IMG/VR virus record: IMGVR_UViG_3300021963_004266
Span: 1-49,677 of that record
DNA length: 49,677 nucleotides
Source of the DNA: a virus
Direction: 5' to 3' (one strand)
The position numbers and the translations under genes were made by a program. Shown in pieces: positions 15,101-39,140 of the stretch (within the stretch, counting starts at the first letter, position 1; each line of letters starts with the position of its first letter). The notes beneath the pieces are model-generated. The model did no database searches. It was given only the letters and a program-made list of their open reading frames with translations, and had not been told where the DNA came from.

Positions 15101-17317
15101 ACAGTGGATTATACTGTAGATACTATTCTTGATTTTGGAAAATTGACATTGGTACCCAATACCTATGTTAAAATTTTAGACGCAGGATCGGGAAATTTTG
15201 CAATTTATTATATTGATTCTAGTTTGAATAAAACTTTGGTTGGTATTGAAAACGGAACAATTCAGATTAGCACAGGCGTTATTCCTCCTAAAGAATTGCG
15301 ACAAATTCTAATAGCAATTCAAACAGAAGTATTAATTGATGACCTAGCAGCTGAGTTTAACCAAGTATTTTTCTTATTGGTCAAATATGCATTAACTGAA
15401 CAAAAGAATTTAGATTGGGTATTTAAAACTAGTTTCTTAAGTGCTACACAGTACATTCGTAAGCTACAACAATTCCCATCTTACATTCCTGACAACCAAA
15501 ACTATTATTTGGATTATATCAACGAAGTTAAACCATATAGAACTATATTGCGTGAATTTGTCGTAGATTATCAGGGCGATGATAAATTTGATGGTGACGT
15601 TACAGATTTTGATTTGCAACCATATTGGGATGCTAACTTAAAAGTATATCGTAGTCCCAGCGGCGAACAACGATATGATAGTAGTTTAGTTACATCTGGA
15701 GTGTATTCCCAGTGGAACAACAAACATACATATAGTGTGGTTGACGTTGTAGTTGACGTACCAGGAACTGGATTTAATTCTCCTCCCCAGATTATCATTA
15801 CTGGTGGCGGTGGCACAGGTGCTACAGCAGTTTCTGCCATTGATGGTAACAGTGGAGTTCTGAGTATTACTATAACAAATGCTGGAAGTGGATATACCTC
15901 AACCCCACTTGTAACTATTAACGGTACAGGTTCGGGTACAGTAGCATATCCAATTCTTCGCAATGTTTGGACTCCCAATTTTGTTAACTCCGGCGACGGT
16001 TATACTGGGCATAACATTGTCAGAAGTATTAAAACTACAATAAAGTTTGATCGTATTAACCATGCGCCAGCAAATACATTTGTGATGTGGGATGAAGTAA
16101 GCAGCGGAGATGTAATACCTGTTGATACTATACTAGTATTAGGAACGTCATTGTATAAGTTAACTGATGAATATACTGTTGATCCTACATTAGAATTCCC
16201 GTTGGCAAACGTAATAGTGATTGCTACAAGTTCGTTTGATAATGCCAATGATCGTATTGTTTCATCCAAGGGAAACATTAACCTGTCAAAGACGCAATAT
16301 GGACTAGAGTATCCTGGTGTAAAAGTTGATGGAAATACCTATGTTGGTGAATACATTGATTCTACTATTTCAAGTCGGTACACAGATTCAATTGGTGTAG
16401 CACCCAGTGACATTATTGTCGACGGCGGTAGATATTATGACACTTACAATAGTCATGCGCCTGAAGAAATGGTACCGGGTATTATATTTGATAGTTTAAA
16501 CTTACAAGTATTTGAAGCAAATTTAGCATATCGAGTATTTAAAAATATGCAAGATGTTGAAAACTATACACGGGTATCATCTGCAGGGTCAACAGATCTA
16601 GCTGCCAATCTGTCAATCACTGATACATTAATATATGTCACGGATGTGTCTACATTGCCGCCTCCTAATCCCGAAGGCGGTATCCCTGGTATTGTATTCA
16701 TTAATGGTGAAAAAATTACATACTATGAATATGATTTAGACAATAATACTCTTGGTCGTATCCGACGTGCTGTAGACGGTACCGGAGGCGCCGCATTACA
16801 TACTGTAGGTAGCCGTGTAGTCGATGCAAGTTTGCAACAGAAGATTCCGTTGACAACCTTCACTGAAGCAAACATTGGATTGGCTCCTGTTACCTATCCC
16901 GCAGTAGATTCAGCAACATTAAAACTAGTGCTGAATACAAACATTACAGCAAATGTTGGAGATTATATCACTGAGTATTTTGTAGGCGGAACAGTTGCTG
17001 CTAACTTGTTAGTAATTGAGAGGACCGTTAATTCCAATACTGTTCCTGTAGTAACATTAACAGGCACAATAAGTTTACTTACAGGTAATACAGTACAATT
17101 AAATGGTACACACGTTGCTGGTAATGTAGTAAGTGGAAATCCATTGGGAATGGTATCTTCGGGAGGTGAAGTGACCCTGGCGGCAAATACAGTAGTAACA
17201 ACCGGCACAATTTGGTATGCACTAGGGTCAGGTACTCCAACAAATGGGCTAGGACTAGAGAACAGCAATACAATACAGAGTAATTTCTTATTGGATCAAC
17301 CAGGGTATACGCCATGA
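6134..17317 (+). CDS. Giant baseplate/tail structural protein with seven FG-GAP-like units
   Basis: This 3,727-residue protein directly follows gp6, the place held by wedge genes such as gp7 and gp8 in T4-like phages, but I see no clear sequence match to them. The N-terminus (INFLPEVFRTSPNQAFL) starts without a signal peptide. Residues about 2185-2560 contain seven F/Y-G-[ST]-[SA]-[IVL] units, each followed by a hydrophobic strand and G-x-P: starts near 2190, 2233, 2281, 2331, 2386, 2441 and 2529. This is the FG-GAP/integrin-type beta-propeller pattern. Residues about 3200-3270 hold glycine-rich GSGYTSTP-type repeats, and about 3520-3570 an INGEKITYYEYD...GRIRRAVDGT module common in marine phage tail proteins. 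A baseplate periphery or fibre-network role is inferred. The frame is unbroken over 11.2 kb. Confidence 0.75.
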   Translation: MSLFNTINFLPEVFRTSPNQAFLSATMDQLATDSYNVPLDGYIGRTFSPTYKSTDNYVPEVNNERSRYQLEPTVVVQDANKKVKFKSDYTDLLHHIKSSGGISTNHQRLFSAECYNYDGKFDYDKFVNYYKYYWMPDGPDAVDIYSNEVPYQNDYVVTRSTGTGGYLFTGTGTQPNTQLTLARGGTYTFTVNQPGFRFWIQTNPGISGTVPGLPTVTTRDIFGVTNNGIETGVIRFNVPLSTAQDFYINMPIAATVDALVTNISYTKIQNRLLSEFLAEFPTGFDGINNQLSGKSFVLINGEYDDLQWTTPAMPTEFTGTDTSDIVPGYIVPEERRVYGWRVELVATDLTNTDYVIQIHPQYTIEIREKVFVRAGLTYASSEYWVDPNYRYKDVPINTSAAEYLYFQDGTNPAYVGQIKLVNNINSTIDVDNEILGKSSWCSPNGVNLTNGLKLSFDSNVIPAAYANKEFYVEGVGTSINLVPVDQLAVPESYGENIDVSPDYITINRGSQDRNGWSRYNRWFHVDVLTATAGYNRADINYGPNIPARRPIIEFNPGLQLFNYGSRSIDNVDIVIFEPTDAFNEVEGQATASVDGVAVQQNDYIVFADDYDTNVKNKIWEVIIEIINGSNYITLIDTGLTVTNGSNVLALRGGNQGKSFYYDGTNWHEAQAKAQINQQPNFDLVDANGYSFADNTVYPGSTFVGTCAFRYKEGTGTNDSILGFPLSYQTFNNIGDIVFENCYDKDTFTYVDDLTTVTKKHSQGYFAVNNGTTVTKETNWVTSVEDTKQYQLFTKFYDGRTVAINGVDRAFVQVDVLPNTEEGLIPYTKVFLNNRLLTAGVDYNIVAYGVYHLVEMTSLPSVGDKIDVQIFSDTISKIGYYEIPKNLDSNPLNENFPTITLGQLRTHYNKLIENYAGVGKTQDTYLKAQIGTITHHSSPLVYAATFLNDPVVNFTTGINLARKEYTRFKNKFLSLCASLTTLNYNNPASGVDTILQSINSVKNNSFPWFYSDMVPQGGNYTTLTYTVLNARQANYELNSIFDVTQLSNRAVLIYVNGTQLTLDADYTFSTIVPAVTITKTLVVGDIITIRDYFNTDGNYIPETPSKLGLYPKFEPEIYLDDTYQTPVSMIRGHDGSITPAFGDFRDQYLLELEKRIYNNIKANYLTNELNRFDIIPGRFRQSDYSLEEFNQLLTQNFLQWVGSNGVDYTTNSWYNASNPWTWNYYGLPDTVNRSSLQGSWRAVFKYWYDTDRPNLAPWEMLGFSSIPSWWLDRYGEAPYTKGNLTLWDDLEAGYIWNNGDPYTDLRFARPGLSTFIPVDFSGNLLSPNLIPLSTLSTSKYVNGSFAVGQQGPVETAWRNSSDYTFAVQVAFALAKPAEYFATQIDTSLVYRNPITNQFSTAENIKITPSILKVNGDTTLGTIKRTSGYINWIGDGIKNLGINPAITLQDYFNNMTVQLSYKVAGFTDKNLLTVSAEQTTPSSTNASVIIPDENYRIYLSKSVPVSTATYSAVIVEKVTGGYSVTGYDLSNPFFTIIPSIASSNSTVISASGVGAKVYNDSTGTSTKIPYGTEFTTLQQVVDFLVSYQRYLTARGFIFTEFSRDLQKQKDFILSAEEFLYWSQQGWANGTILVLNPITNKLIFSSYFTVVDEITNAPTSSRVLDQNFVPIKSTSLTLLRDSVFTKEQAEPVNVMTMEVINGSYVSLAKLNLVQYEHTLIFDNVDDFGDIIYVPSQGTRQYRLKLSGEKTGGWNGMLFAPGYVYSDPKILTWETNYDYKTGDIITFSSNYYTATKNIPASSKFDATQWKQISSDDIRTGLLPSFGHNAQKFANYYDVDNPPPEEDLQLFSAGLIGFRQKPYLTDLGISIPNQTKFYQGYIKQKGSRNSINALTKANFENVQGTVTTYEEWAFLIGKYGDFSRNQYNEFILDQSIFNTNPVAFTYASEYSTTHSDIIDLSSANIYNSSNLSSTTTSIYNNRVDSTYITDLPTAGFVHLDDVESTLFNIANATPADVLEVGSGHKIWVAKDSQENWNVLRVTETKLIATKINYMLDSYAQLFFNGNHSFEVGDSMVLTNFNTIYGNYNGVYTVEAVPNSSSITITVSPTAGNNLLYLVQNSPLTAAGTVYALESMKIDLITDITNITPLNGWRDYDRVWVDSATENGWGVYTYSRPWDANTVSEITPVSLSSNERFGSAIRISSNTEYVYTGSPGEGRVYANIINSSYANIIVSNANSSFGSAIESQGNLLVVGAPTDGNVHVYLHSTSANTITKLQTIHSSNVSGRFGTSIAMSTDQRWLYIGEPGSDVVQAYWTANIGANAYYDRVTAFGTGTGNVGYSVKTNGSTIFVGAPNATNEEVNNGNVYVFTRTSNAFALSNTLSSNWKNENANFGASLAVDGTGGNLFVGIPGSTQSGIYNGRVERYIKDGSNYVFNEYIEHPNEEIGNFGSSISVSSDAVALVVSSQGSSGREETTFDDNATVIDGQSTIFIDLIFNSGAVYLFEPLIDRTDAGTLGEYIYVQELETQINTGDQYGTAIDVTRSKIAIGAPGTNSNAGAGYLLNNPNEDTVWMLTREQQPQVDINSINRTFLYNKTNDNILTSIDYIDPKKGKVLNSVGKDIDYYRIGDPAVYNAGTGVLNPGFHWGPNQVGKIWWDLDSVRFIEYEQDILSYRLNNWGKMFDGSTVNVYQWVESSVLPSQYRIYGGRGTPVFDNDSAYCTYGWVDQRGTVHLKYYFWVAGLDEIAKNKSNSVISITAGIENPQSQGVTYATVLRNDTLALYNINSLLTGTNSVLHVEKRTIDAGLIHSEYALIQEGNPTSKIPGILLNKFVDSIAGQDAAGNVVPDPTLTPAQAYGISVRPRQGMFIDKSLALLNYVGVVNEKLISYPVVERKVLTTLNSSETIPPVNSGAYDLIVADSDELTYVDTNMISDGYRVLVSSVRTQSGKWVIYEWDGNVWNVAIREDESDWIQNYKTNLYWDFVDYYDPLFDSTTTVDYTVDTILDFGKLTLVPNTYVKILDAGSGNFAIYYIDSSLNKTLVGIENGTIQISTGVIPPKELRQILIAIQTEVLIDDLAAEFNQVFFLLVKYALTEQKNLDWVFKTSFLSATQYIRKLQQFPSYIPDNQNYYLDYINEVKPYRTILREFVVDYQGDDKFDGDVTDFDLQPYWDANLKVYRSPSGEQRYDSSLVTSGVYSQWNNKHTYSVVDVVVDVPGTGFNSPPQIIITGGGGTGATAVSAIDGNSGVLSITITNAGSGYTSTPLVTINGTGSGTVAYPILRNVWTPNFVNSGDGYTGHNIVRSIKTTIKFDRINHAPANTFVMWDEVSSGDVIPVDTILVLGTSLYKLTDEYTVDPTLEFPLANVIVIATSSFDNANDRIVSSKGNINLSKTQYGLEYPGVKVDGNTYVGEYIDSTISSRYTDSIGVAPSDIIVDGGRYYDTYNSHAPEEMVPGIIFDSLNLQVFEANLAYRVFKNMQDVENYTRVSSAGSTDLAANLSITDTLIYVTDVSTLPPPNPEGGIPGIVFINGEKITYYEYDLDNNTLGRIRRAVDGTGGAALHTVGSRVVDASLQQKIPLTTFTEANIGLAPVTYPAVDSATLKLVLNTNITANVGDYITEYFVGGTVAANLLVIERTVNSNTVPVVTLTGTISLLTGNTVQLNGTHVAGNVVSGNPLGMVSSGGEVTLAANTVVTTGTIWYALGSGTPTNGLGLENSNTIQSNFLLDQPGYTP

Positions 17318-26200: not shown

Positions 26201-26210
26201 AGCTTTCTAG

Positions 26211-26232
26211 CGTAATAAATAAAAGTATTACG
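26211..26232 (+). repeat. Inverted repeat in the leader of the 26255 gene
   Basis: CGTAATA (26211-26217) and TATTACG (26226-26232) are perfect inverted copies around an eight-base spacer. A late-promoter motif (26214-26221) lies inside. It may be an operator or a leader hairpin; AT-rich chance pairing is also possible. Confidence 0.5.
26214..26221 (+). promoter_or_regulatory. Candidate late promoter for the 26255 gene
   Basis: AATAAATA matches NATAAATA and lies 33 bases before ATG 26255. Together with the TATAAT promoter just upstream, this gap may hold both host-type and late control. Confidence 0.45.
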
Positions 26233-26254: not shown

Positions 26255-27166
26255 ATGGCATATTCACAAGGTGGACTGATTGATGCAGTTGACTATAACA
26301 ATTTTTTAAATGGCTCAAACCAATTTAACACAGTTTGGGGTGTGGGTACTGGCAACGCCGGATACGGACAAACTGCATTAAGTACTGTTAGTAGTGCCGG
26401 AACAGTTACAGCTACTCAGTGGGCTACGCTAATTAATGCGTTAAATAGTGCAAGAACACACCAAAGCGGTTCAGGATCCGGTATTTCAGCAACCACTGCA
26501 GGTTCAACTATTAACTATCTAAGTACATTATCTACTCAAATTAATTCAGCATATACAAATAGATTGACATTTGCTACACAAGGTACTACTACCACTGGCG
26601 GCAACAATGGCAACAATCTTACTGTGGCTAACCAAGCCGCAGCATCAACCCTAAGTTTTACACGAACAGCAACATTTGCTAGTGCGGCACAAATGAGGTA
26701 TTTCTTCAATTGTGGCGGACAGATTAACTTTGTTATTTCTAGTGCTAGTAACGGAGATTCCACAAGTCGATCTGGCGACTTAGTAACATTGGCGCAGACA
26801 AACATGGGCGGCTTCTCTGCATTTAGACAAGGCTCGGGCGGTGGACGCACTGGATCTGGCGGCACATTAAACACCAACGCCACTGGCATTGGTTTTTACC
26901 AATGTACGACTTCTAACCAAACGCTAGTATCAATAACCAGTACCACAGGTAGTTATACTAGCGATACAGCAATATTGTATGTACGTACCAATGCCTCCCC
27001 GGGCGCATCGACTATTTTGTATTTCCAATGTGATATTACTAGTGCTGCAAAAACAGCCCCAGTATTTAATCAATCACTCAACGTAACAGTCAACAACAGA
27101 TTAGACATTGTTTACCCAGAAACAACTAACTTAACCAACAGTTGGGGCACAGTTACTATCGGTTAA
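26255..27166 (+). CDS. Phage structural (fibre or decoration) protein of unknown role
   Basis: The 303-residue protein begins MAYSQGGLIDAVDYNNFLNG. It continues with an N-terminal region rich in small residues (ATQWATLINALNSARTHQSG) and a beta-rich, serine/threonine/asparagine-rich C-terminal half (LNVTVNNRLDIVYPETTNL). It has no signal peptide, membrane segment or enzyme motif. The composition resembles virion proteins of marine phages. It is the last gene before the terminator-like hairpin and has its own promoter-like elements, so it may be expressed independently of the fibres upstream. Confidence 0.65.
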   Translation: MAYSQGGLIDAVDYNNFLNGSNQFNTVWGVGTGNAGYGQTALSTVSSAGTVTATQWATLINALNSARTHQSGSGSGISATTAGSTINYLSTLSTQINSAYTNRLTFATQGTTTTGGNNGNNLTVANQAAASTLSFTRTATFASAAQMRYFFNCGGQINFVISSASNGDSTSRSGDLVTLAQTNMGGFSAFRQGSGGGRTGSGGTLNTNATGIGFYQCTTSNQTLVSITSTTGSYTSDTAILYVRTNASPGASTILYFQCDITSAAKTAPVFNQSLNVTVNNRLDIVYPETTNLTNSWGTVTIG

Positions 27167-27177
27167 TCCTAATTAGG

Positions 27178-27206
27178 TTGACATCGAAGGTGTAGTGCAG
27201 TATACT
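27178..27206 (+). promoter_or_regulatory. Near-consensus sigma70 promoter heading the modification operon
   Basis: TTGACA (27178-27183) is a perfect -35 and TATACT (27201-27206) a five-of-six -10, with the ideal 17-base spacer. It points into the unbroken run of twenty genes beginning at 27229. The predicted transcript start is near 27213, which leaves a very short leader. Confidence 0.7.
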
Positions 27207-27224
27207 AACTGTCTACACCTTTTC
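27187..27224 (+). terminator. Terminator-like hairpin overlapping the promoter
   Basis: AAGGTGTAG (27187-27195) pairs perfectly with CTACACCTT (27213-27221). Inside, CAGT (27198-27201) pairs with ACTG (27208-27211), leaving a six-base loop. Thymines follow (TTTTCT around 27220-27225). This fits a rho-independent terminator that ends the late tail transcript. The -10 element of the next promoter is within the hairpin. Confidence 0.6.
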
Positions 27225-27228
27225 TATT

Positions 27229-27543
27229 ATGACCGAACTAGCTCAACTAACCACAGAAATTCGTCGGGCAACCGATTATCAAATTAATAAACGGATACTA
27301 AGAGAGAAGATCCAAACAGATCTGCACTTTGCACATAATGGCGGACTGTTTAAGATCACACCTGAGATATTAGCATTTGTACAATCTTGGCCCGTTGATG
27401 AATTGTATCTTGAAGATACATATCAAAACCCAATTCAAATTAATAAGAGTGTATTTCTAGTCACAGCACAACAACATTACCAGCAAGTAATGAATACATG
27501 GCACCAACAACATGCAGAACTCCGAAAAATCCGCAAAGTCTAA
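27229..27543 (+). CDS. Small protein of unknown function, first gene of the operon
   Basis: The 104-residue protein is mostly helical and charged, with LFKITPEILAFVQSWP, ELYLEDTYQNPIQI and QQHYQQVMNTWHQQHAEL. I recall similar small proteins near tail-fibre genes of marine T4-like phages, without a known role. It has no signal peptide or membrane segment. The ATG lies just after the hairpin, with no clear ribosome binding site, so translation may begin on a very short leader from the promoter at 27178. Its end overlaps the next gene by 32 bases. Confidence 0.65.
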   Translation: MTELAQLTTEIRRATDYQINKRILREKIQTDLHFAHNGGLFKITPEILAFVQSWPVDELYLEDTYQNPIQINKSVFLVTAQQHYQQVMNTWHQQHAELRKIRKV

Positions 27544-28327
27544 GGGTGTACTAGTATTTGCTTTTAATACTAATGTTGATTATGTTGGTATTGCTGACCT
27601 TACTAGTCAATTAATTGCACACAATTTAAAATTGCCAGTTACGTTAGTAACAGACTTAACAGGCGATCCTAAATTTGACTACGACCAAATTATTAGAATT
27701 AACAATACCGGGGATAATTTTAGAACTAACTTAAATGATCAAACCGTGACCTGGAGAAACTTTGGTAGATACATGGCCTACGAACTAAGTCCCTATGATG
27801 AAACAATTTTGTTGGACACAGACTATCTTGTCTTAGACAACAGTTTACTAAAATTGTTTAGCACAGAATTTGATTATAAGTTAATGCATCATAATGTAAC
27901 TCCTGCGGGTGCCAGTTATGAAATGATGGGCGAATATAGCCTTCCTTATATTTGGGCCACAGTTGTATTGTTTAGAAAAAGTGAACGTAGCCGATTATTC
28001 TTTAATCTAGTTGGCCGCATACAACGCAATTACGGATACTATTCTGTGTTATATAACATTCGTGAAGGCAACTATCGCAATGACTATGCATTTGCTATTG
28101 CTAATAATATTCTTAGTGGATATAACACCAACGAAGACCAAGGAATACCGTGGACTATGTTTACCATAGATAAAAAGATCGACAGTATTATGCTCACTGA
28201 TAACTTTGTGCAAATTAAACACAACGACAATGCAGTAGTGGTGCCCTATCAGAATATACATGTAATGGATAAAGTATATTTACAAAGCAGAGATTTTGAA
28301 CAAGTAGTGGAGGCTATCTGTGCATAA
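27512..28327 (+). CDS. Glycosyltransferase-like protein (GT-A fold, GT8-like)
   Basis: The 271-residue protein starts with a Rossmann-like segment (GVLVFAFNTNVDYVGIA) and carries ETILLDTDYLVLD. The DTD at residues 102-104 has the position and setting of the metal-binding DxD motif in GT-A glycosyltransferases such as family GT8. Cytoplasmic, with no signal peptide or membrane segment. The start at 27512 lies inside the previous gene (32-base overlap), and no better start is available. The next gene encodes a second protein of similar design, so the pair may act in sequence on one acceptor. Donor and acceptor cannot be predicted. Confidence 0.7.
   Translation: MQNSEKSAKSKGVLVFAFNTNVDYVGIADLTSQLIAHNLKLPVTLVTDLTGDPKFDYDQIIRINNTGDNFRTNLNDQTVTWRNFGRYMAYELSPYDETILLDTDYLVLDNSLLKLFSTEFDYKLMHHNVTPAGASYEMMGEYSLPYIWATVVLFRKSERSRLFFNLVGRIQRNYGYYSVLYNIREGNYRNDYAFAIANNILSGYNTNEDQGIPWTMFTIDKKIDSIMLTDNFVQIKHNDNAVVVPYQNIHVMDKVYLQSRDFEQVVEAICA
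28309..28313 (+). promoter_or_regulatory. Ribosome binding site deciding a GTG start
   Basis: GGAGG lies six bases before GTG 28320, inside the end of the previous gene. It supports a GTG start for the next glycosyltransferase-like gene. Confidence 0.6.
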
Positions 28328-29171
28328 AGAACAACAAGGATTTGTTACATTTGCAATCAACAATGATGTAGTTGATTATTTAGAACTTGCGTACTTACAA
28401 TGCCTAAATGTGAAAGCAACACAAAAAACAAATAGTTACGCAGTTATAGTGGACAAGGATACAATGGCTAAAGTCACTGATCGTCATCGGGCAGTATTTG
28501 ACTATGTGATAGAAGCCTATGATGTTGGCACAGGCCTTGGTATCCCATTTAGCAGAGAACCTCAAGTATTCCAACTAACACCGTTTAAAGAAACAATTAA
28601 ATTAGAAAGTGATTTATTGTTCACCCGCAGTATTGACCACTGGTGGACTGCATTTAGATTAAAAGATGTTTGTTTGAGCACAGGAGCAAGAGACTTTAGC
28701 GGTAGTAAATCTTCGGTTAGAAAATATAGAGAACTATTTGACGCCAATGCTTTACCGGATGTTTACAATGGGCTAATGTATTTTAGATATAGCCAAGACG
28801 CAGCAGACTTTTTTCAAATTGCGGCCAATATATTTTACGCCTGGGCCGAAATTTCAATTGAGCTTAGGAAGTATGATGAAATTGTGCCCACTACCGATGT
28901 TGTGTATGCCATTGCCGCACAAATACTTGGCGAAGAAACAGTTACTATGCCCAGCATGGATTTTATAAACTTTGTACACATGAAGTCTGAATTTAACGGG
29001 TGGAGCGATAACCGTAGTTGGATTGATACTGTAATGGGTGAGCGTGACGGAGATGTTATGCGTATTAACAACCTTAATCAATACCATCCCGTACATTACT
29101 TTGATAAAAACTATGCCACGGAAGAATTAATTAAATACTATGAATCAAGAAGAACTCAACTTTTGGCGTGA
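28320..29171 (+). CDS. Glycosyltransferase-like protein, second of the pair
   Basis: The 283-residue protein uses a GTG start with a good GGAGG site and overlaps the previous gene by eight bases. It opens with QGFVTFAINNDVVDYLELAYLQ, similar in layout to its neighbour, and has ETIKLESDLLFTRSIDHWW. Here ESD stands where GT-A enzymes have DxD, so metal binding may be altered. Later segments (PDVYNGLMYFRYS, VPTTDVVYAIAAQ) resemble the acceptor-side region of such enzymes. No membrane segment is present. The assignment is by fold-level pattern; the reaction is unknown. Confidence 0.6.
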   Translation: MHKEQQGFVTFAINNDVVDYLELAYLQCLNVKATQKTNSYAVIVDKDTMAKVTDRHRAVFDYVIEAYDVGTGLGIPFSREPQVFQLTPFKETIKLESDLLFTRSIDHWWTAFRLKDVCLSTGARDFSGSKSSVRKYRELFDANALPDVYNGLMYFRYSQDAADFFQIAANIFYAWAEISIELRKYDEIVPTTDVVYAIAAQILGEETVTMPSMDFINFVHMKSEFNGWSDNRSWIDTVMGERDGDVMRINNLNQYHPVHYFDKNYATEELIKYYESRRTQLLA

Positions 29172-29499
29172 AGTTGAATCGCTAATCAAACCTGTTGTTG
29201 AAACAGTATTTGAATATAGATTACACTACAACGACATTGGCAACATTACTATGTGCTCAATGTCCAATCACCCAGAATCCGCACAATACATTGTAGTAGA
29301 TCAACAGACATACGAAAACTATTTTCGTTATACTATTGTTGATGGAGCCCTTGTAAAAATAAAAACTGATGCAAAGTATTCTAGTAAGCTGAAACCGGCT
29401 GCTACAGGGATCGCTGTAGTACACGGGCATGCCGGATTAATAATTGAAGACACCGAATCACATAACAACATTGAACACTATGAGTACAGAAGTAATTGA
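29140..29499 (+). CDS. Small protein of unknown function
   Basis: The 119-residue protein begins inside the previous gene (32-base overlap). It has an acidic helical start (MNQEELNFWREVESLIK) and a beta-rich middle (YIVVDQQTYENYFRYTIV, GALVKIKTD), then GIAVVHGHAGLIIED. I do not recognise it. It has no signal peptide, membrane segment or catalytic motif. Its place between glycosyltransferase-like genes suggests an accessory or partner role. Confidence 0.6.
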   Translation: MNQEELNFWREVESLIKPVVETVFEYRLHYNDIGNITMCSMSNHPESAQYIVVDQQTYENYFRYTIVDGALVKIKTDAKYSSKLKPAATGIAVVHGHAGLIIEDTESHNNIEHYEYRSN

Positions 29500-30382
29500 C
29501 GTAGCAGACTTGGATTGTATATTCTTAACCTATGATGAACCTAATAAAGAAATTAACTGGATTAAAATCCAAAATATGGTACCTTGGGCAAAACGTGTTG
29601 ATGGCGTCACAGGCAGTGATGCGGCACACAAGGCAGCAGCCGATGCTAGCAATAGCGATCGTTTTATCCTTATTGATGGGGATAATATTCCTGAACCAGA
29701 TTTCTTCAATCTCCAATTACAGTTGGATAGTCGCAGTAATGATTGTGTGTTTCGTTGGAAGGCTCGTAACGCTGTTAATGGCCTTCTTTACGGAAACGGA
29801 GGAATGAGTTGCTGGACCAAAGAGTTTGTCTACAACATGCGTACACACGAAGCCAGTGACGGCACAGCAGAAAATGATGTAGAGTTTTGTTTTCATCCCA
29901 ACTATTGGGCAATGAATGATTGTTACAGTACTACATATCCTAATGCAACTCCCTTCCAGGCCTGGCGAGCCGGTTTCCGCGAAGGTATTAAGATGTGTCT
30001 AGACCGTGGAGCAAAACCTACCATAGAAGAATTTGAACGTCGTGTACATAATCGCAACTATGATCACTTGTGCGTATGGCAAAGCGTGGGTGCCGACGTT
30101 GAAAATGGTCTGTGGGCAATGTACGGAGCCAGACTGGGTACCTATATGTTAATGATCGACAATTGGGATTATAAACAAGTACAAGATTTTAATTGCCTTA
30201 AAATGATCTGGGATGATGGATTACAGTACAACGATCCTGCAAAAAGCATTGAACAATTAGCGGCACCATTGAAAACTAAATTAGGATTGCCTATTACTGC
30301 AATGAGTGCAGATGACAGTAGATTCTTTAAACATCACTACAAATCGCAATTTAAAAATCAAGGACCAATGATCCGTGAGTAA
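29480..30382 (+). CDS. Glycosyltransferase-like protein related to the C-terminus of the 46159 protein
   Basis: I place the start at ATG 29480 (300 residues; MSTEVIDVADLDCIFLTYDEP). A TTG at 29444 would extend it by 12 polar residues with no clear benefit. The N-terminal IFLTYDEPN and later RFILIDGDNIPEPDFF form the nucleotide-sugar side of a GT2-like GT-A fold, with DGD as the likely metal site. The segments VDGVTGSDAAHKAAADAS, ARNAVNGLLYGNGGMSCW and PFQAWRAGFREGIK align with VNGRTEAIRAAAEAS, AHNPVNGLEYGHQAMVCY and PWTTWRTAFREVVK in the protein at 46159. The two therefore share a domain. It immediately precedes the radical SAM array. Confidence 0.65.
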   Translation: MSTEVIDVADLDCIFLTYDEPNKEINWIKIQNMVPWAKRVDGVTGSDAAHKAAADASNSDRFILIDGDNIPEPDFFNLQLQLDSRSNDCVFRWKARNAVNGLLYGNGGMSCWTKEFVYNMRTHEASDGTAENDVEFCFHPNYWAMNDCYSTTYPNATPFQAWRAGFREGIKMCLDRGAKPTIEEFERRVHNRNYDHLCVWQSVGADVENGLWAMYGARLGTYMLMIDNWDYKQVQDFNCLKMIWDDGLQYNDPAKSIEQLAAPLKTKLGLPITAMSADDSRFFKHHYKSQFKNQGPMIRE

Positions 30383-31763
30383 ATCAGATTTTATGTCTAG
30401 TGCAGAGTTTATGAAGGACAATCTTGGTCCTGCACTCTGCCTGGCCAAATGGAAACAAGTGAGTTTACACCTGCCCACTGGACTAAACAATAGTTGTTAC
30501 CATCCACCGTTGCATCCCATTGATGCTACAAAATTAAAAGACAATCCTGGTGCATTACACAACACGGATCACAAAAAATCACAGCGTGTGATAATGTTAA
30601 AGAATGAAAAGCCCGAAGAGTGTAGTTACTGTTGGAATGTTGAAGCACACGGGCAATTAAGCGACCGACATTACCGCAGTGGCGAACCTTGGGCTGCTGT
30701 GGACTACGAAGCAATTAAAAATAGCACAGGAACAGAAGATGATGTTGTGCCTAGTTACGTTGAAGTAAATTTCAACCATGCTTGCAATCTTAGATGTAGC
30801 TATTGTTCACCACAGTTTAGCTCAAGTTGGCAAGCAGAAGTCGATAAGTTTGGCGCTTATCCTACTAGCACTCCTCACAATGATCCTGTACATTTCACTG
30901 GTAATCGACGACCTATCCCTGCAAGGGAAGATAACCCTTATGTAGATGCATTCTGGGAGTGGTGGCCAACTTTATATCCTAAGTTAAAACACTTTCGTAT
31001 GACCGGTGGCGAACCATTGATGGACAAAAATACCTACAAGGTATTTGACTACGTATTAGCATTACCTAATCCCGAGTTACATTTAAATGTAACCAGCAAC
31101 TTCTCTGTTGATGATGCATTGTTTAACAAATATATTGATTACGTTAAACAATTATGCAACACACAAATAGAACATTTCATGCAGTATGTTAGTCTCGATA
31201 GCGGCAACCATGCCCACGCAGAATACATTAGGCACGGACTAATATACAATAAGCTGTTTGAAAATGTACACAGGTATCTATATCAAGTACCGAATAGAAA
31301 TAGTCTAACGTTTATTATTACAATGAATAATTTAAGCGTACTTGGTATCCAACGTCAACTAGAATGGATATTAGAACTACGCAAACTATATAGCAAAACA
31401 TACCAACGTGTATGGTTTGATACTCCGTTGTTACGTACACCTACCTGGCAGAGTTTACAAATCTTACCTCCTGTTTATGCTGGCGTGTTGGAACGTGTTG
31501 CAGATTGGATGGAACTAAATTTAGAAACTCCAGAACAACCATTCCATGGATTTAAAGATTACGAAGTGCAACGTATGCGTAGAGACGTAGCGTGGATGAA
31601 AGAAGGTGCTAATTTAGATCCTGCTTATCTTAAACAACAACGTGCAGACTTTTATAGATTCTTCAGAGAACATGATAGTCGTCGAAAAACAGATTTTACA
31701 ACAACCTTCCCTGAAATGAAAGAATTTTGGAATGAGTGCAGATACTACGCAACTAATCCCTAA
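30375..31763 (+). CDS. Radical SAM protein 1 of 7 (type A)
   Basis: This 462-residue protein should use a [4Fe-4S] cluster and S-adenosylmethionine to start radical chemistry. CNLRCSYC places the cluster cysteines at 137, 141 and 144, and RMTGGEPLMDK gives the SAM-binding GGEP motif. Ahead of the core is a cysteine-bearing domain: ALCLAKW, NSCYHP and EECSYCWNVE. This looks like a SPASM/twitch-type auxiliary cluster domain at the N-terminus rather than the C-terminus, as known for a phage-associated 'twitch domain-containing radical SAM' family. The C-terminus reads RADFYRFFREHDSRRKTDF...TFPEM. The closest relative in the window is the protein at 33983. The start is GTG 30375, overlapping by eight bases; ATG 30393 is an alternative. 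The substrate is unknown. Confidence 0.85.
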   Translation: MSKSDFMSSAEFMKDNLGPALCLAKWKQVSLHLPTGLNNSCYHPPLHPIDATKLKDNPGALHNTDHKKSQRVIMLKNEKPEECSYCWNVEAHGQLSDRHYRSGEPWAAVDYEAIKNSTGTEDDVVPSYVEVNFNHACNLRCSYCSPQFSSSWQAEVDKFGAYPTSTPHNDPVHFTGNRRPIPAREDNPYVDAFWEWWPTLYPKLKHFRMTGGEPLMDKNTYKVFDYVLALPNPELHLNVTSNFSVDDALFNKYIDYVKQLCNTQIEHFMQYVSLDSGNHAHAEYIRHGLIYNKLFENVHRYLYQVPNRNSLTFIITMNNLSVLGIQRQLEWILELRKLYSKTYQRVWFDTPLLRTPTWQSLQILPPVYAGVLERVADWMELNLETPEQPFHGFKDYEVQRMRRDVAWMKEGANLDPAYLKQQRADFYRFFREHDSRRKTDFTTTFPEMKEFWNECRYYATNP

Positions 31764-32871
31764 CACCTTCTGCCCAGGTAAATGGGAAGAATTGTGCTTA
31801 AATATGAACTACAACTATGTCTATGGTTGCTGCGATGCCAAACCTTTGAAATTTGTAAAAGATTTCAATGAAGTACTAAATGAACAAAAAATAAATCTAC
31901 TCAATGGAATTAAAGACTCCAGTTGCAACTATTGTTGGAGTGTAGAGGCAGGTGGCAATTTAAGTAGACGTCACGAATACTTAAAAAAGTTTAATGGCGA
32001 CCTAACTCCATACACTACTAATACTGCCCCTGTTGATTTGTTTGAGATCAACTTGGGTAATGAGTGTAATTTTCAATGTGTTTACTGTAACCCAAAATAC
32101 AGTAGCGTGTGGGAAGCAGATGTAAGGAAACAACAGTATAAGGTTTTTTCTGATAGACATAATTATGAAATATTAGACAAAACAGAAACAACAATGTTAA
32201 GTGCAAACGAGCAGATTCTAAAGCAAGTTGGGCATACTAATATTGTTCGTATAATAGGTGGCGAGCCATTATATAATAAAAGACTATGGAGTTTACTTGA
32301 AGTAATTAATTCGAACGAATTGCACATTGCAACTAATTTATCTTGTAGTACGTCCCACATAGATCGTCTACTGAAATTTGCAGAAACAAAATTTAAAAAG
32401 ATACGATTACAAATTAGTTTAGAATCAACCGGCGAGATTGCGGAGTTTGTTCGGTACGGCACAGATTATAATGAGCTGGTTAAAAACATAGAGTATACCA
32501 TACATAATGCTCCATCAAACGTGTTAGTTAGTATTTCTTCTGCATTTAATAGTATTAGTATTCGAGATCTGGGAAACTTTACAAAAGTAGTTGAATCTTG
32601 GAGAACAGTGAGGCCTGAAATCCCGTGGGTATTTAATTATTGTATCAATCCAAGCATTCAGAGTTTTTATACGCTACCTAACAAATACAGAGAAGATATT
32701 CTTAAAGATATACAGTACGTAAAGACCCTCCAGCACATGGGACGAGTTGAGGTTGTTGAATCGGCCTTATTAAATTATAAATTTAACCCAACTATGCACA
32801 AAGAAATGAAGCATTTTATGCAACAATTTGCAGAACGCAAAAACATAGAAATACCTATATGTCTGGATTAA
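31732..32871 (+). CDS. Radical SAM protein 2 of 7 (type A, short)
   Basis: The 379-residue protein overlaps the previous gene by 32 bases. CNFQCVYC puts the cluster cysteines at 112, 116 and 119, and VRIIGGEPLYNK supplies the GGEP motif. The N-terminal domain has TFCPGKW, GCCDAKP and SSCNYCWSVEAGG, with the same CxxCW ending as the other type A members but a shorter intervening loop. It lacks the FFREHDxRR...FP ending of proteins 1 and 4, closing with MQQFAERKNIEIPICLD. It may be a diverged duplicate with a different substrate. Confidence 0.85.
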   Translation: MSADTTQLIPNTFCPGKWEELCLNMNYNYVYGCCDAKPLKFVKDFNEVLNEQKINLLNGIKDSSCNYCWSVEAGGNLSRRHEYLKKFNGDLTPYTTNTAPVDLFEINLGNECNFQCVYCNPKYSSVWEADVRKQQYKVFSDRHNYEILDKTETTMLSANEQILKQVGHTNIVRIIGGEPLYNKRLWSLLEVINSNELHIATNLSCSTSHIDRLLKFAETKFKKIRLQISLESTGEIAEFVRYGTDYNELVKNIEYTIHNAPSNVLVSISSAFNSISIRDLGNFTKVVESWRTVRPEIPWVFNYCINPSIQSFYTLPNKYREDILKDIQYVKTLQHMGRVEVVESALLNYKFNPTMHKEMKHFMQQFAERKNIEIPICLD

Positions 32872-34013
32872 ACAAGAACAAGGCATTTTGTATATTACCA
32901 TTCATACATCTACACGTTGATGAGCGTAATGATGTTAAACTATGTTGCGTTGCATCTCAACACACAGTGGACAAATACTCTACAGAATTTGATTTTAAAA
33001 CAAATCCTGCTTTGCAGCAAGTTAGGCAAGATATGCTAGATGGCAAACGTGTACCGCATTGTAAAACATGTTATGAGTTTGATGATGGCGGAACCGACAG
33101 CTTACGCACACGGGAAAATAAAGAATGGTCCAATACACTTGGAATCAATGACATCAAACAAGTCTCTACAGATTTAATTTATTACGATGTAAGGAATGAC
33201 AACTTATGTAATCTAGGATGCCGTATGTGCGGGCCGCAATCGAGTAGTCAATTAGAAAAAGAGTTTATAGAGATTGGATGGCCGGTCAGCTCTTCTGCAA
33301 AAAGTTTTGGGTTCAATGATGTCATTGACTTGGCCACAGTTAAGCGTGTTTATGTTGCTGGGGGAGAACCTAGCATTATGCCTACATTTAGACAATTTTT
33401 AAAACGTGCGGTTGAGTCCGGCAAAACAGATTTTGAACTTCGTATGAATACTAACGCTACAAATCTTAATAAGGAATACAGAGATTTATTAAAGAACTTT
33501 AAGTCTCTACACATTACAGTAAGTCTAGATGGATACGATCAAATTAATCGTTATATTCGGTGGCCCAGTGATTGGGATACTATCATTAAAAATGTACACG
33601 GGTTGTATGAAATCACCGAGCAGATATCATTTAATGTAACTGTTAGCATCTGGAATATCAGTAATTTAAGTCAATTAGTGTTTGCACTGGAAAAAGAATT
33701 TTCGTTACCGGACATATTATTAAATCGTGTAACGTACCCCGCATCAAATGAGTGTACAACTTTTCCTAATAAAGAATTAGCAATTACAGACCTAGTAAAA
33801 ATTAAAGAATCTAGATCGTACAACGGTAATATATCGTTTAGATCTAAGATTGATTATTATATCTCCGAAATGCAAAATAGTAAACTCAATAAGGTTGCAT
33901 TATGGAAATTTTTCAAGTACAATGATAGTCTTGACAAGAGTAGAAATATTAAACTACATGATTACATACCGGAATTAGAAATATGCCGCGAATTAATAAC
34001 GAAACAGATTTAG
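32859..34013 (+). CDS. Radical SAM protein 3 of 7 (type B)
   Basis: The 384-residue protein has cluster cysteines at 117, 121 and 124 (CNLGCRMC) and VYVAGGEPSIM. The N-terminal domain differs from type A: AFCILPFIHLHVDERND, then VKLCCVASQ and VPHCKTCYEFDD, matching the C-x-x-P-[WF]...CC...CxxC pattern of SPASM-like domains. The motif after the core cysteines, GPQSSSQLEKEF, matches the 'SSxW' position of its relatives, with Gln-Leu in place of Trp. It overlaps the previous gene by 13 bases and the next by 31. Confidence 0.83.
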   Translation: MSGLNKNKAFCILPFIHLHVDERNDVKLCCVASQHTVDKYSTEFDFKTNPALQQVRQDMLDGKRVPHCKTCYEFDDGGTDSLRTRENKEWSNTLGINDIKQVSTDLIYYDVRNDNLCNLGCRMCGPQSSSQLEKEFIEIGWPVSSSAKSFGFNDVIDLATVKRVYVAGGEPSIMPTFRQFLKRAVESGKTDFELRMNTNATNLNKEYRDLLKNFKSLHITVSLDGYDQINRYIRWPSDWDTIIKNVHGLYEITEQISFNVTVSIWNISNLSQLVFALEKEFSLPDILLNRVTYPASNECTTFPNKELAITDLVKIKESRSYNGNISFRSKIDYYISEMQNSKLNKVALWKFFKYNDSLDKSRNIKLHDYIPELEICRELITKQI

Positions 34014-35332
34014 AATACAAACGCAGAGTGATTGACATTAAGTCAGAGTCATTCTGCGGAGCAAAATGGTACAATGCCACCATTTGGCTGGGTAGCGGAC
34101 AAACAACTAGCTGTCATCACCCCTTACCTCATGCAATTGATGTTGATGAACTGAAAAAAAATCCCAAGGCATTGCACAACACCACCAAGAAGAAAATGGA
34201 ACGTGAGCAAATGCAAAAAGGCGAACGTCCGTCGGGTTGTGAATACTGCTGGAAGATTGAGGACATGAACACCGATGCTGTTAGCGACCGCGTGTATAAA
34301 ACAGTAATTTATAACGATGCGGATTTAGCCTACGCACATCGTACTCCTGCAAGCAAAGACATTGATTTACAAACATTGGAAATTGCGTTTGACCGCACTT
34401 GCCAGTTTGCTTGTAGTTATTGCAATCCTGCTTTTAGTAGCACATGGGTTAAAGATATACGAAACAACGGCGCTTATCAGGGATTGGTTAGCGACGGCAG
34501 GAATCATTTTACTCATGATCACGCATCCTCACAGCTTTACAAGTTTGGAGAACAAAATCCTTATGTTGATGCATTTTTTGCCTGGTGGGAAAAAGACCTA
34601 CACCGAACACTCAAAGAACTTAGAATAACTGGCGGTGAGCCATTGATGTCCGGTGAGACTTGGAAACTAATTGAATGGTTTAAAACTAACAAAGGAAAGA
34701 GTACTACACGACTTGCCATTAACAGCAATCTAGGTACAGACGTAGACATTGATCGGTTACTTGCAGCAATTGATGGGGTTGAAGTGGATCTCTACACAAG
34801 TAATGAATCTATGAGCTTACAGGCAGAATACATTCGCGACGGCCTGGTATTTGATGACTGGGCAAATAATGTAGAACGTTTACTTGACTCAGGTAAGTTC
34901 CGTGGGCTACATGTAATGTGTACTATTAACGCACTATGTCTTGATAGTTTGGATAGCTTTCTTGAAATGGTAATGAATTGGAAACGCGAATACGGAAAAG
35001 ACGCAATCAACTTTTCACTAAATATATTACGCTTCCCAAGTTTTCAATCACTAACAATCTTACCCGAAGACATTCGACTTGCTTATTATAACCGACTGCA
35101 TGCCTTTGCTGACAATTATAGACACGGCACAGAAATGCACGAGTTCGAATGGAATCAATTAACACGATTGCTGAACTATATCAGTGAAGTAAGCGAAGCA
35201 CACAAAGAAGCAATGTCAAAAAGTGTACTACAACGTGACTTTAAAAACTTTTTTGCACAATATGATCAACGCAGAAGTAAAAACTTTGCCGAGACATTCC
35301 CTGCACTAGCAGAATGGTATAATTCAATATAA
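33983..35332 (+). CDS. Radical SAM protein 4 of 7 (type A)
   Basis: The 449-residue protein is the clear sister of radical SAM 1. Cluster cysteines are 140, 144 and 147 (CQFACSYC), with LRITGGEPLMSGETW. The N-terminal domain reads SFCGAKW, TSCHHPLPHAIDVDEL, NPKALHN and SGCEYCWKIED, aligning almost residue for residue with SCYHPPLHPIDATKL, NPGALHN and EECSYCWNVEA. The end (DFKNFFAQYDQRRSKNFAETFP) also matches. Two such close copies in one operon suggest recent duplication and either dosage or closely related substrates. Confidence 0.86.
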   Translation: MPRINNETDLEYKRRVIDIKSESFCGAKWYNATIWLGSGQTTSCHHPLPHAIDVDELKKNPKALHNTTKKKMEREQMQKGERPSGCEYCWKIEDMNTDAVSDRVYKTVIYNDADLAYAHRTPASKDIDLQTLEIAFDRTCQFACSYCNPAFSSTWVKDIRNNGAYQGLVSDGRNHFTHDHASSQLYKFGEQNPYVDAFFAWWEKDLHRTLKELRITGGEPLMSGETWKLIEWFKTNKGKSTTRLAINSNLGTDVDIDRLLAAIDGVEVDLYTSNESMSLQAEYIRDGLVFDDWANNVERLLDSGKFRGLHVMCTINALCLDSLDSFLEMVMNWKREYGKDAINFSLNILRFPSFQSLTILPEDIRLAYYNRLHAFADNYRHGTEMHEFEWNQLTRLLNYISEVSEAHKEAMSKSVLQRDFKNFFAQYDQRRSKNFAETFPALAEWYNSI

Positions 35333-36648
35333 TGGCCGATAACTTAAACGATTACTACAAAGAATATAACTACGGTGCTCGTAAACCTGTATACATTAAA
35401 GAAGAAGAACTACGACCAGACCAACTTGATCGATTGATTAAGAGCAACGAGTTCTGTATGATTCCGTGGATTCATATGCATGCCTTTCCTGACGGGCGAG
35501 CATATCCTTGTTGTTTAAGTGAACCTCAACATCCTGTTGGAAATTTAAAAACGCAGACTATGCGCGACATTTGGAATGATGAGCCATTGAAGCTGATGCG
35601 TAAAAATATGCTAGACAATCAACCTTGTAAAGAGTGTACTAAATGTTACGAGCAAGAGCAAAGTAAATTGTTTAGCATGAGAGAAAGTGCTAACAAAAAC
35701 TTTGGACATCACGTTGGTTTAGTAGATGATACTAAAGAAGATGGCACCTACGAAGATTTTAAATTAAGATATTACGATATTCGATTTAGCAACTTATGTA
35801 ACTTTAGTTGCCGCACCTGCGGCAGTCTGTTCTCTAGTAATTGGTACAAGGATGAAAAAGCCGCAGGTTGGAATCCACAGCACCCACAGGTGATGTATGC
35901 TGGTAAAGACAAAGGTGACATGTGGGAGCAGATGCAAGAGCACATTCCACATCTAGAACAAATCTACTGGGCCGGCGGCGAGCCATTGATTATGGAAGAA
36001 CATTGGAAAGTACTCGACGAACTAGTTAAGCGCAAGATGTTCCATGTACGACTAATCTATAACACTAACTTCTCAGAGATGAAGTTTAAAGGACGCGACG
36101 TATTCGAAATGTGGAAACTGTTTGATTGCGTTAGCGTAGGTGCTAGTCTGGATGGCAGCCACAAGCGTGGAGAATATATCCGTAAAGGACAGGATTGGCA
36201 ACAAACTGTGGATAATCGTCGGCGCATGCTAGAAGTATGTCCTAATGTAGATTTTTATGTTAGTAGCACAATCAGCATGATGAATGTAATGCATATTACA
36301 GACTTCCACAGAGAATGGGTTGATCTGGGATTATTGCGTCCAATGGATTGGAATATCAATATCCTGCAACATCCACATCGTTACCGTGTTGACGTATTGC
36401 CCCAAAATCTCAAAGAGCAGGCTAAAGCTAAGATTGAAAAGCACTTGGAATGGTTACGTCCACTGGATAATCTAAGTCGTGCAGTTAGTGGATACGAAGG
36501 TGTTATTAACTTTATGATGCAACAGGATAGCACACATCAATTACCTGAATTCTTTAGAAACAATAACTTGATCGACGATGTACGCAATGAAAACTTCTTT
36601 GCAATATTTCCCGAACTAGCGGATATTAAACAATATGACCCTTCCTGA
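35332..36648 (+). CDS. Radical SAM protein 5 of 7 (type B)
   Basis: The 438-residue protein starts one base into the previous stop (TAATG). Cluster cysteines are 156, 160 and 163 (CNFSCRTC); the SAM motif is IYWAGGEPLIMEEHW. The N-terminal auxiliary domain is the clearest in the array: EFCMIPWIHMHAFPDG, AYPCCLSEPQHPVGN, TMRDIWNDEPLKLMR and CKECTKCYEQEQ. This has the order of a SPASM domain (C..PW, G..PCC, I.DIW, C..C), normally found after the radical SAM barrel. The C-terminus ends NENFFAIFPELADI, echoing the FP-ending of other members. Confidence 0.87.
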   Translation: MADNLNDYYKEYNYGARKPVYIKEEELRPDQLDRLIKSNEFCMIPWIHMHAFPDGRAYPCCLSEPQHPVGNLKTQTMRDIWNDEPLKLMRKNMLDNQPCKECTKCYEQEQSKLFSMRESANKNFGHHVGLVDDTKEDGTYEDFKLRYYDIRFSNLCNFSCRTCGSLFSSNWYKDEKAAGWNPQHPQVMYAGKDKGDMWEQMQEHIPHLEQIYWAGGEPLIMEEHWKVLDELVKRKMFHVRLIYNTNFSEMKFKGRDVFEMWKLFDCVSVGASLDGSHKRGEYIRKGQDWQQTVDNRRRMLEVCPNVDFYVSSTISMMNVMHITDFHREWVDLGLLRPMDWNINILQHPHRYRVDVLPQNLKEQAKAKIEKHLEWLRPLDNLSRAVSGYEGVINFMMQQDSTHQLPEFFRNNNLIDDVRNENFFAIFPELADIKQYDPS

Positions 36649-37858
36649 GTCTATATGTATGTTGCCTTGGGTTAGCATAGAAACTAGCCCAATGGGCACA
36701 GTACGTCCTTGCTGCCTTGCACATGACGAGGTCACTGATGCCAACGGTGATAAATTTAATCTACGGGAGGCTACAATAGAACAAGCATATCACAGTGAGT
36801 ATATGCAAGACCTACGTAGACAGTTTCGTGCAGGAGCAAAGCCCGATACTTGCAGACGTTGTTGGGATGAAGAAGATGCTGGTCGTACAAGTAAACGCAT
36901 GCACAGCCAGGTTAGACTAAAAGAAATGCTCGGCAAAGTAGATTGGGCCAACGATAATCCAGATCAGCTTTGGTTTGTTGATTTAAAGTTGGGTAATATT
37001 TGTAATTTAAAATGCCGTATATGTGGCTCTTGGTCTAGCAGTAAATGGGCCGAAGAAGAAATGAGTTACCTACCCCCGCATATTGAAAAGAAAAGTCATA
37101 TTGCTTACACTTGGTTAAAGCAGGGACGTTGGCCCCGAGAAAGCAACGACTTTTGGGAAAACCTACGCAACCTATTGCCCAACATCAAGTACTTCGAATT
37201 CACTGGCGGGGAGCCTTGGTTAATTGAAGAACACTGGGACTTGTTAAAATATGCAGTTAAAACTGGGGACAGTAAACATATTGATATCCACTATAATACT
37301 AACGCCACTGTGGATCCGTTTAGTAAAGGTAGATCTGCATTGTGGTCAAATTTTGGTCGCGTGGACATTGCTTTTAGCATTGATAACATAGAACAACGAT
37401 TCGAATATGAACGCTATGGTGCCAATTGGGTACAAGCAAATAACATTATCAATGATGTACATTTTTCAAGACATGTAGATTCTCCTATCACAACGCAACT
37501 GTGCTTTACTATAAACATACAAAATGTATATTACCTAGATGAATTATTAGCATGGGCAGATACCAAAGCATTTGATAGTGTACATTTTAATATGTTGCAC
37601 AGCCCCGAGCATATGAGTATACAATATCTAACACCTCGAGCTAAAGAATTGGTTGTAAACAAATTAAAAACTACCTTCTGGACTTCAAACAAATATCAAG
37701 AAGAAATTAATAATGTTATTAACTTTATTGAAAATGGCACAGGCAGTAATGGCTATGAATTTAAGCGCCATATGAAACTAGGCGACACTCATAGAAAACA
37801 AAACTTTGCAGATACACATGCAGAAATAGCAGAAGCAATGGGCTATAATGAAACCTGA
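36635..37858 (+). CDS. Radical SAM protein 6 of 7 (type B)
   Basis: The 407-residue protein has cluster cysteines at 123, 127 and 130 (CNLKCRIC) and FEFTGGEPWLIEEHW. The N-terminal domain reads SICMLPWVSIETSPMG, VRPCCLAHDE, ATIEQAYHSEYMQDLR and TCRRCWDEEDAG, again SPASM-like. The SWSSSKWAEEE segment after the cluster cysteines and the FEYERYGANW stretch are shared with protein 5. It overlaps its neighbours by 14 and 11 bases, so translation is probably coupled. Confidence 0.87.
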   Translation: MTLPESICMLPWVSIETSPMGTVRPCCLAHDEVTDANGDKFNLREATIEQAYHSEYMQDLRRQFRAGAKPDTCRRCWDEEDAGRTSKRMHSQVRLKEMLGKVDWANDNPDQLWFVDLKLGNICNLKCRICGSWSSSKWAEEEMSYLPPHIEKKSHIAYTWLKQGRWPRESNDFWENLRNLLPNIKYFEFTGGEPWLIEEHWDLLKYAVKTGDSKHIDIHYNTNATVDPFSKGRSALWSNFGRVDIAFSIDNIEQRFEYERYGANWVQANNIINDVHFSRHVDSPITTQLCFTINIQNVYYLDELLAWADTKAFDSVHFNMLHSPEHMSIQYLTPRAKELVVNKLKTTFWTSNKYQEEINNVINFIENGTGSNGYEFKRHMKLGDTHRKQNFADTHAEIAEAMGYNET

Positions 37859-39140
37859 CACACTATGCATGGCGCCGTGGACACACACCTACCTAAGCCC
37901 ACAAACTGAGCGCCGTATGTGTTGCGCCAGCAGAGAGCCTGCACAAAACTTTCAGCAGTATATTGACACCAGTGCAGGCACAGGCAAGTATATACCTATC
38001 ACATTAGATGAACATTGGAACAGTGATCATATGCGATCCGTACGTCGACGCATGATGTCCGGGGAAACACTACCTGAATGCGAGGTGTGCAACGATCGAC
38101 TATTGAACACCAGTGTTTATCGTAGCTATTTTAATCAGTTGTTTGGGCATAAATACAATGAAGCCATTGCTTCCACAGATGACACAGGTTTAACTACTAT
38201 GCAACCTGTAAGTTGGGACTATCGGTTCAGCAATCTCTGTAATTTCAAATGCCGCATGTGTGGTGATATGCTATCCAGTGCCTGGGAAACTGAGCAACGA
38301 CAACATAATATGATCGATTGGACAAATCCAAAAAATACATGGATGGTACCCGAAGTCAAAAAACAAATTGAGCAATTCCAAGAAAATCAAATTGAAGACG
38401 AATTCTCAAGGGCTGTTGAGGAACACCGGATAGAAGAAGTATATTGGGTCGGCGGTGAGCCACTAATGTACGAACAACATTGGCGTTATATGAAACGCAT
38501 CATTGAATTAGGAGATGGACCAAATGTTTACGCTCGTTACAACACAAACCTTAGCCGTATTAATTTTAAGGGCATTAATTTGTATCACGATATTTTACCT
38601 AGGTTACGCGATTGGCAGATCTGTGCAAGCATCGACGGAACTGGAAAGATCGGTGAATACATTAGATCGGGCCTTAATTATAATGAGTGGCGTGAAAACT
38701 TCTGTCAGGGAGTTGAAATCTCAACTCACCGCAGACAGGTTAGAATCGACTTCACACTCACTTTGCCCGGAATGTTTGAAGTTACACATATCAAACAACT
38801 CGCCGAAGAATTTGGGGTAGATGTTCTTGCCAAAGTAATTTTTAGTTTCAGCCCGGATATAGTTATGTCGCCGCTAGCACTACCTAGACATCTCTTAGAT
38901 GAGTGGGTAGACGAAATCTTGCACTCCATTGATAAAGGAGCTCTAAGTGACATACTTGTCCAGCTGAAAACTAGACCTACCTTTGCTGAACAATGGCCCA
39001 ACGAATACCAAAATGGACTAATTAAAGGCAAGAAACGTATATTAGAGCTTGAAAGAATTCGCAAAGACGTGTATACTATGAATGATATATTAAAAGAAAG
39101 ACCTGCTGTATATGAGTGGTGGAACTCAATCCCGAGTTAA
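37848..39140 (+). CDS. Radical SAM protein 7 of 7 (type B)
   Basis: The 430-residue protein has cluster cysteines at 131, 135 and 138 (CNFKCRMC) and VYWVGGEPLMYEQHW. The N-terminal domain is TLCMAPWTHTYLSPQ, RRMCCASREP, HWNSDHMRSVRRRM and LPECEVCNDR. After the core cysteines it has GDMLSSAWETEQ. The segment INLYHDILPRLRDWQICASIDG resembles the matching region of protein 5 (RDVFEMWKLFDCVSVGASLDG), supporting common ancestry within type B. It closes the radical SAM run and overlaps the next gene by 29 bases. Confidence 0.86.
   Translation: MKPDTLCMAPWTHTYLSPQTERRMCCASREPAQNFQQYIDTSAGTGKYIPITLDEHWNSDHMRSVRRRMMSGETLPECEVCNDRLLNTSVYRSYFNQLFGHKYNEAIASTDDTGLTTMQPVSWDYRFSNLCNFKCRMCGDMLSSAWETEQRQHNMIDWTNPKNTWMVPEVKKQIEQFQENQIEDEFSRAVEEHRIEEVYWVGGEPLMYEQHWRYMKRIIELGDGPNVYARYNTNLSRINFKGINLYHDILPRLRDWQICASIDGTGKIGEYIRSGLNYNEWRENFCQGVEISTHRRQVRIDFTLTLPGMFEVTHIKQLAEEFGVDVLAKVIFSFSPDIVMSPLALPRHLLDEWVDEILHSIDKGALSDILVQLKTRPTFAEQWPNEYQNGLIKGKKRILELERIRKDVYTMNDILKERPAVYEWWNSIPS

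Follow-up and report, generated by a model that had tools for sequence, protein, structure and literature searches.

In phage T4, the genes e, soc, 49 and I-TevI have a late promoter placed inside a hairpin, which forms on upstream transcripts and masks their ribosome binding site, so that only RNA started from the internal promoter escapes it (PMC2988022 section 12, PMC3014915). Promoters within hairpins also occur at T4 segB and at mobE of phage Aeh1 (PMC2988022 section 12). We inspected the sequences of T4 soc, 49 and I-TevII directly. At the Escherichia coli frd terminator and ampC control region, neighboring operons share terminator and promoter DNA, with a hairpin that is part of the ampC transcript and acts as an attenuator. 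The early hairpin promoters of phage N4 are associated with a DNA inverted repeat.

We analyzed a virus record of 49,677 bases, hereafter the window, in which a hairpin and a sigma70-type promoter are interlocked behind the tail genes. As in the T4 genes, the start, here predicted, lies within the hairpin, and RNA begun there would be without the 5' arm, so that the hairpin can form only on RNA begun further upstream. The T4 genes have late promoters downstream of early or middle transcripts, whereas the window has TTGACA-17-TATACT downstream of tail genes; the T4 hairpins hide the ribosome binding site, whereas that of the window is terminator-like and leaves the start codon outside. The window belongs with the promoter-in-hairpin devices and is set apart among them because two of their defining features, the buried start region and the late promoter, are absent. 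Its distinguishing traits are the sigma70 promoter, the structural genes upstream and the terminator-like hairpin. Like an intrinsic (rho-independent) terminator, it has a stable hairpin where a transcription unit would end, and a U-rich tract, here moderate, that may correspond to the U-run of a terminator; it differs in also holding the promoter of the next unit and in its long inner stem, bulge and six-base loop. It resembles frd/ampC in its shared terminator and promoter DNA and differs from it in the predicted absence of the 5' arm from the downstream transcript. An inverted repeat at the promoter is common to N4 as well, but here the repeat varies in arm sequence, loop and position around conserved -35 and -10 boxes, and the window and its relatives gave no sign of N4-like hairpin-specific promoter recognition. 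A search of the literature on overlapping promoters and terminators, with most subscription journals outside its scope, found no matching phage report.

The gap downstream of the tail genes

T4-like baseplate and tail-fiber genes occupy the window up to about 27.2 kb, and its gp6-like protein is closest to those of named phages of the XaC1, Hallingskeid, GAP32 and K64-1 types, at about 33% identity. One open frame in this region (6134-17317) spans 3727 aa. Motifs of the AATAAATA type stand 13 to 41 nt ahead of the genes at 2595, 3027, 24899 and 26255, and from their likeness to T4 late promoters the tail genes are probably transcribed late. The motif before 26255 sits inside a short inverted repeat, CGTAATA...TATTACG (26209-26232); a relative, L002, has a different base just ahead of the 3' arm of this repeat. 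Beyond the 62-nt gap, the first gene encodes a 104-aa protein that matched no Pfam or PHROG family. Its predicted model is confident (pLDDT 92); an uncharacterized phage protein is the sole strong match, and DUF4376 phage proteins and prefoldin resemble it weakly. Further on, at 30375-40188 and 41688-43187 and beside the phage tail genes, about eight genes in a row, mostly with radical SAM or SPASM matches, precede a carbamoyltransferase gene and GDSL-like genes (Table 1).

Table 1. Positions of the features in and around the gap
Feature	Position	Strand	Remarks
T4-late-promoter-like motif AATAAATA	26214-26221	+	41 nt before the upstream gene; consensus match only
Upstream gene, end of tail-fiber run	26255-27166	+	303 aa counted from the listed ATG
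-35 element TTGACA	27178-27183	+	TTGAC invariant in the 13 closest sites
5' outer arm AAGGTGTAG	27187-27195	+	upstream of the predicted start
5' inner arm CAGT	27198-27201	+	pairs with the 3' inner arm
-10 element TATACT	27201-27206	+	mostly within the hairpin loop
3' inner arm ACTG	27208-27211	+	pairs with the 5' inner arm
3' outer arm CTACACCTT	27213-27221	+	pairs with AAGGTGTAG; predicted transcription start at about 27213
T-rich tract TTTTCTATT	27220-27228	+	follows the stem's G-C core
First downstream gene	27229-27543	+	104 aa
Downstream gene run	27512-44853	+	unknown genes, radical SAM/SPASM genes, carbamoyltransferase, GDSL-like genes

The promoter is of the sigma70 type, with a 17-bp spacer. 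It is the top match (11/12) of 64 promoter-like sites in 19.9 kb, a number at chance level (59 expected). The hairpin extends over 27187-27221, followed by TTTTC. Its outer stem has nine pairs and its inner stem four, or five if a possible G27197-U27212 wobble is counted; T27196 is bulged, and the loop is ATACTA (27202-27207). One inner-stem base and five of the six loop bases make up the -10 element. The T run (TTTT, 27220-27223) lies partly inside the stem and is followed by CTATTATG; TTTTCTATTATG follows the hairpin. Pairing and coordinates thus confirmed the description in an earlier note on this DNA, of nine outer and four inner pairs and a thymine run overlapping a promoter whose -10 element lies in the hairpin. 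That note had also proposed that transcripts from near 27213 are free of the hairpin. The sequence agrees: RNA begun at 27211-27215, around the predicted start, lacks the 5' arm and cannot form the hairpin, and the predicted promoter RNA carries only the 3' arm. The interpretation in that note as a whole, in which late read-through would be stopped where a new transcript begins, is partly supported.

Folding of the RNA from 27170 to 27240 gave -21.9 kcal/mol (z -4.33), a value equaled by 1 of 200 shuffles, and the stem alone gave -17.4 kcal/mol; the window thus has the stable hairpin expected of an intrinsic terminator. None of 200 shuffles reached its interlock score (z 4.4). The tract TTTTCTATT is moderate and T enrichment is class-wide (see below), yet the hairpin was missed by a simple terminator scan, for which its bulge and loop are the probable reason. 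The hairpin likely acts as a terminator. No Rfam model matched it at E ≤ 1, and no second copy was found within the window.

A promoter and an inverted repeat might coincide by chance in a short AT-rich gap, and the count of promoter-like sites around it fits this. As that number is at chance level and the terminator scan missed the hairpin, the case against chance rests on the relatives.

Conservation of the architecture in relatives

The 104-aa protein was used in four scans, which yielded 171 loci. After removal of near-identical upstream regions, 85 were kept, which with the window made 86 sites. At all 86, the gene ahead of the gap has about 290 to 370 codons; the gene pair is conserved, and at most sites its members lie about 60 nt apart. 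The 'phages' collection held no relative of the DNA from 26600 to 28200 and none of the 104-aa protein, and no relative was found in the cellular genome set.

Sites were classed partly by eye, and the tallies include the window. At 50 of the 86 the strongest hairpin straddles the -10 element (interlocked), and 3 are weakly interlocked (L029, L037, L153). Five are abutting (L018, L102, L111, L128, L164), the hairpin starting at the -10 element and the predicted start lying within the 5' arm. A separate ordinary terminator, e.g., AAAAGCACTC-GAAA-GAGTGCTTTT, stands ahead of the promoter at 19, and 9 are of other kinds. L031 and L075, whose interlocked score comes from G-U-rich pairing with coding sequence, were classed by eye as having separate terminators. 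In six of the 19 (L056, L064, L066, L070, L071, L160), the terminator is followed by a T4-late-like GATAAATA a few bases before the ATG, with no sigma70 promoter. The promoter class seems to have been swapped there from sigma70-type to T4-late-type, and the downstream gene can, as predicted from this motif, also come under a late-like promoter. On a poorly resolved protein tree of 104 columns there are at least 21 class changes, and it supports no direction or number.

We fixed the hexamers and shuffled the remainder, keeping mononucleotide composition only. Interlocking reached p ≤ 0.05 in 57 of the 80 distinct sites with a promoter, a count that includes L031 and L075 although the interlocked tally excludes them, and p ≤ 0.005 in 49. 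As controls we took 254 further sigma70-like promoters in intergenic DNA of the window and of nine relative genomes. A score of at least 11 was found for 58 of the 80 junction promoters, chosen at a score of at least 8, versus 17 of the 254 controls, chosen at a stricter score of at least 10 (Fisher 4e-31); the sites are phylogenetically non-independent, and kinship inflates these interlocking figures. The architecture is thus specific to the junction.

The arms fall, on a reading by eye, into about 20 unrelated sequences (for example, GGTGTAG, CTGGTTAG, TCTACRCAG, GATAAGCTAG, AGCACAGTCT, GTACAGGTATATA). In the two best-sampled clades, pairing was kept in 91% and 92% of cells, and covariation, likewise inflated by kinship, was 0.193 versus 0.155 in shuffled data (reached by 1 of 500) and 0.210 versus 0.109 (0 of 500). 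Stems changed on both sides, C-G being replaced by U-A or A-U, and arm pairs changed as from CTGGTTAG/CTAACCAG to AAGATTAG/CTAATCTT. The search for compensatory changes suggested in the earlier note therefore turned out in its favor, as stem sequence changes and pairing is kept. When stem mismatches were counted symmetrically, G-U exceeded A-C (27 versus 8, p 0.002), as expected of plus-strand RNA pairing and not of a DNA palindrome. With the architecture conserved despite changed sequence and so distinct from the 254 other promoters, we rejected chance overlap, whose probability is negligible. The interlock of promoter and hairpin is real, selected and recurrent.

The arms are nearly fixed within clades (GGTGTA/TACACC; GGTTAG/CTAACC) and the dyad is centered near the -10 element in many sites, as it might be if a dimeric repressor or activator bound the inverted repeat as a palindromic operator. 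Between clades, however, the arm sequences are wholly different, and the dyad center ranges from -4.5 to +16.5 relative to that of the -10 element; the G-U excess and the one-sided U-run also speak against an operator. We found no conserved half-site at a fixed place relative to the promoter and rejected this reading as very unlikely.

Class A and B together have 50 sites whose hairpin is significant, and at every one of them a distance of 5 to 21 nt separates the end of the 5' arm from the predicted start further downstream, so that RNA from upstream would fold and promoter RNA would not. This loss of the 5' arm from promoter RNA, and the retention of the promoter inside the hairpin, would be left unexplained if the hairpin stabilized or trimmed the tail-gene mRNA after read-through, by 3'-end protection or RNase processing and with no termination. 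Such a role accords with the fact that every main class has a stable hairpin a short way past the stop codon, whether or not a U-run follows, but we give it little credence. Class A sites have a T-rich tail after the stem (4.3 of 8 versus 2.9 in the background).

Start-codon and MazG variants

About six relatives keep the hairpin without any U-run, and the function shared by all sites may therefore not be termination. At L004, L030, L032, L033, L112 and L156, which lack a U-run, the 3' arm contains or adjoins a leaderless-type start codon, and the -10 element ends about 6 nt or less before the ATG. A second junction, where a structural gene is followed by a MazG gene (Pfam MazG), also carries the interlocked hairpin at sites with a TTGACT promoter. 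There, the 3' arm reads AAGGAGTT or nearly so, combined with several different inner stems, and the -35 element lies partly inside the 5' arm; about seven distinct versions occur, for example, at L204:1680-1760 (G005:221686) and G009:70843. Essentially only those MazG genes that have their own TTGACT promoter have such a site.

In the genomes G001 to G011 (loci L173 to L260), the distance from predicted start to start codon peaks sharply at 0 among 264 intergenic sigma70-like promoters (44 sites, with 9 at -1 and 10 at +1), which suggests many leaderless mRNAs in this phage group.

A buried Shine-Dalgarno sequence and/or AUG is present in the class B relatives and the MazG sites, where AAGGAGTT is the Shine-Dalgarno sequence ahead of the ATG. 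These variants match T4 e, soc, 49 and I-TevI (PMC2988022 section 12, PMC3014915) and raise the question of a translational switch of that kind in the window too, with the hairpin on read-through RNA burying the start of the 104-aa gene and RNA from the internal promoter being free and translated. In the window, however, the ATG lies outside the stem, 7 nt past it, and the arm has no Shine-Dalgarno sequence; class A arms have U-runs, and 19 relatives place plain terminators in the gap. A switch of this type is unlikely to be its main role. Where relatives have no U-run, the start codon is paired and its burial is probably how this geometry acts there, so that termination would not be the sole use of the architecture.

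A putative self-exempting insulator

We favor the reading, which we hold to be reasonably probable, that the gap is a self-exempting insulator at the operon boundary, by which transcripts from the tail genes would be ended or silenced. Polymerase coming from the tail genes would copy both arms and produce a stable RNA hairpin with a U-rich tract, at which most elongating complexes would stop, near 27221-27226. The sigma70-type promoter of the next operon lies in the DNA of that hairpin, with its -10 element in the loop. RNA from this promoter would start near 27213 with only the 3' arm and would neither fold nor stop, and a single 47-bp stretch would both end one transcript and begin the next. 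The tail genes would be read late and the downstream genes by a host-type sigma70 polymerase. Because 19 of the 86 sites have an ordinary terminator in the same gap, we consider the stopping of incoming transcripts to be the shared task of the window's class; these separate terminators fit a stop function for the gap.

In this compact genome, one short sequence would thus serve for stopping and for starting with no clash between the two, since half of the stop signal has already been passed where the second transcript begins. The part is small and easily tested in a reporter. More tentatively, and with less confidence than for the window itself, it is possible that a large group of uncultivated T4-like phages shares a widespread, unrecognized architecture in which a start is nested in a stop signal or in a start-codon/Shine-Dalgarno hairpin, placed after structural genes and repeatedly rebuilt with new sequence. 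On this wider reading, the terminating polymerase may even reload directly onto the promoter beneath it, which single-molecule work on polymerase recycling would allow (PMC6978322, PMC6978380). The relatives form a natural series, from a separate terminator followed by a promoter, through abutting and interlocked forms, to forms interlocked with the start codon, which would let the fusion and splitting of terminators, promoters and leaderless starts in evolution be tested.
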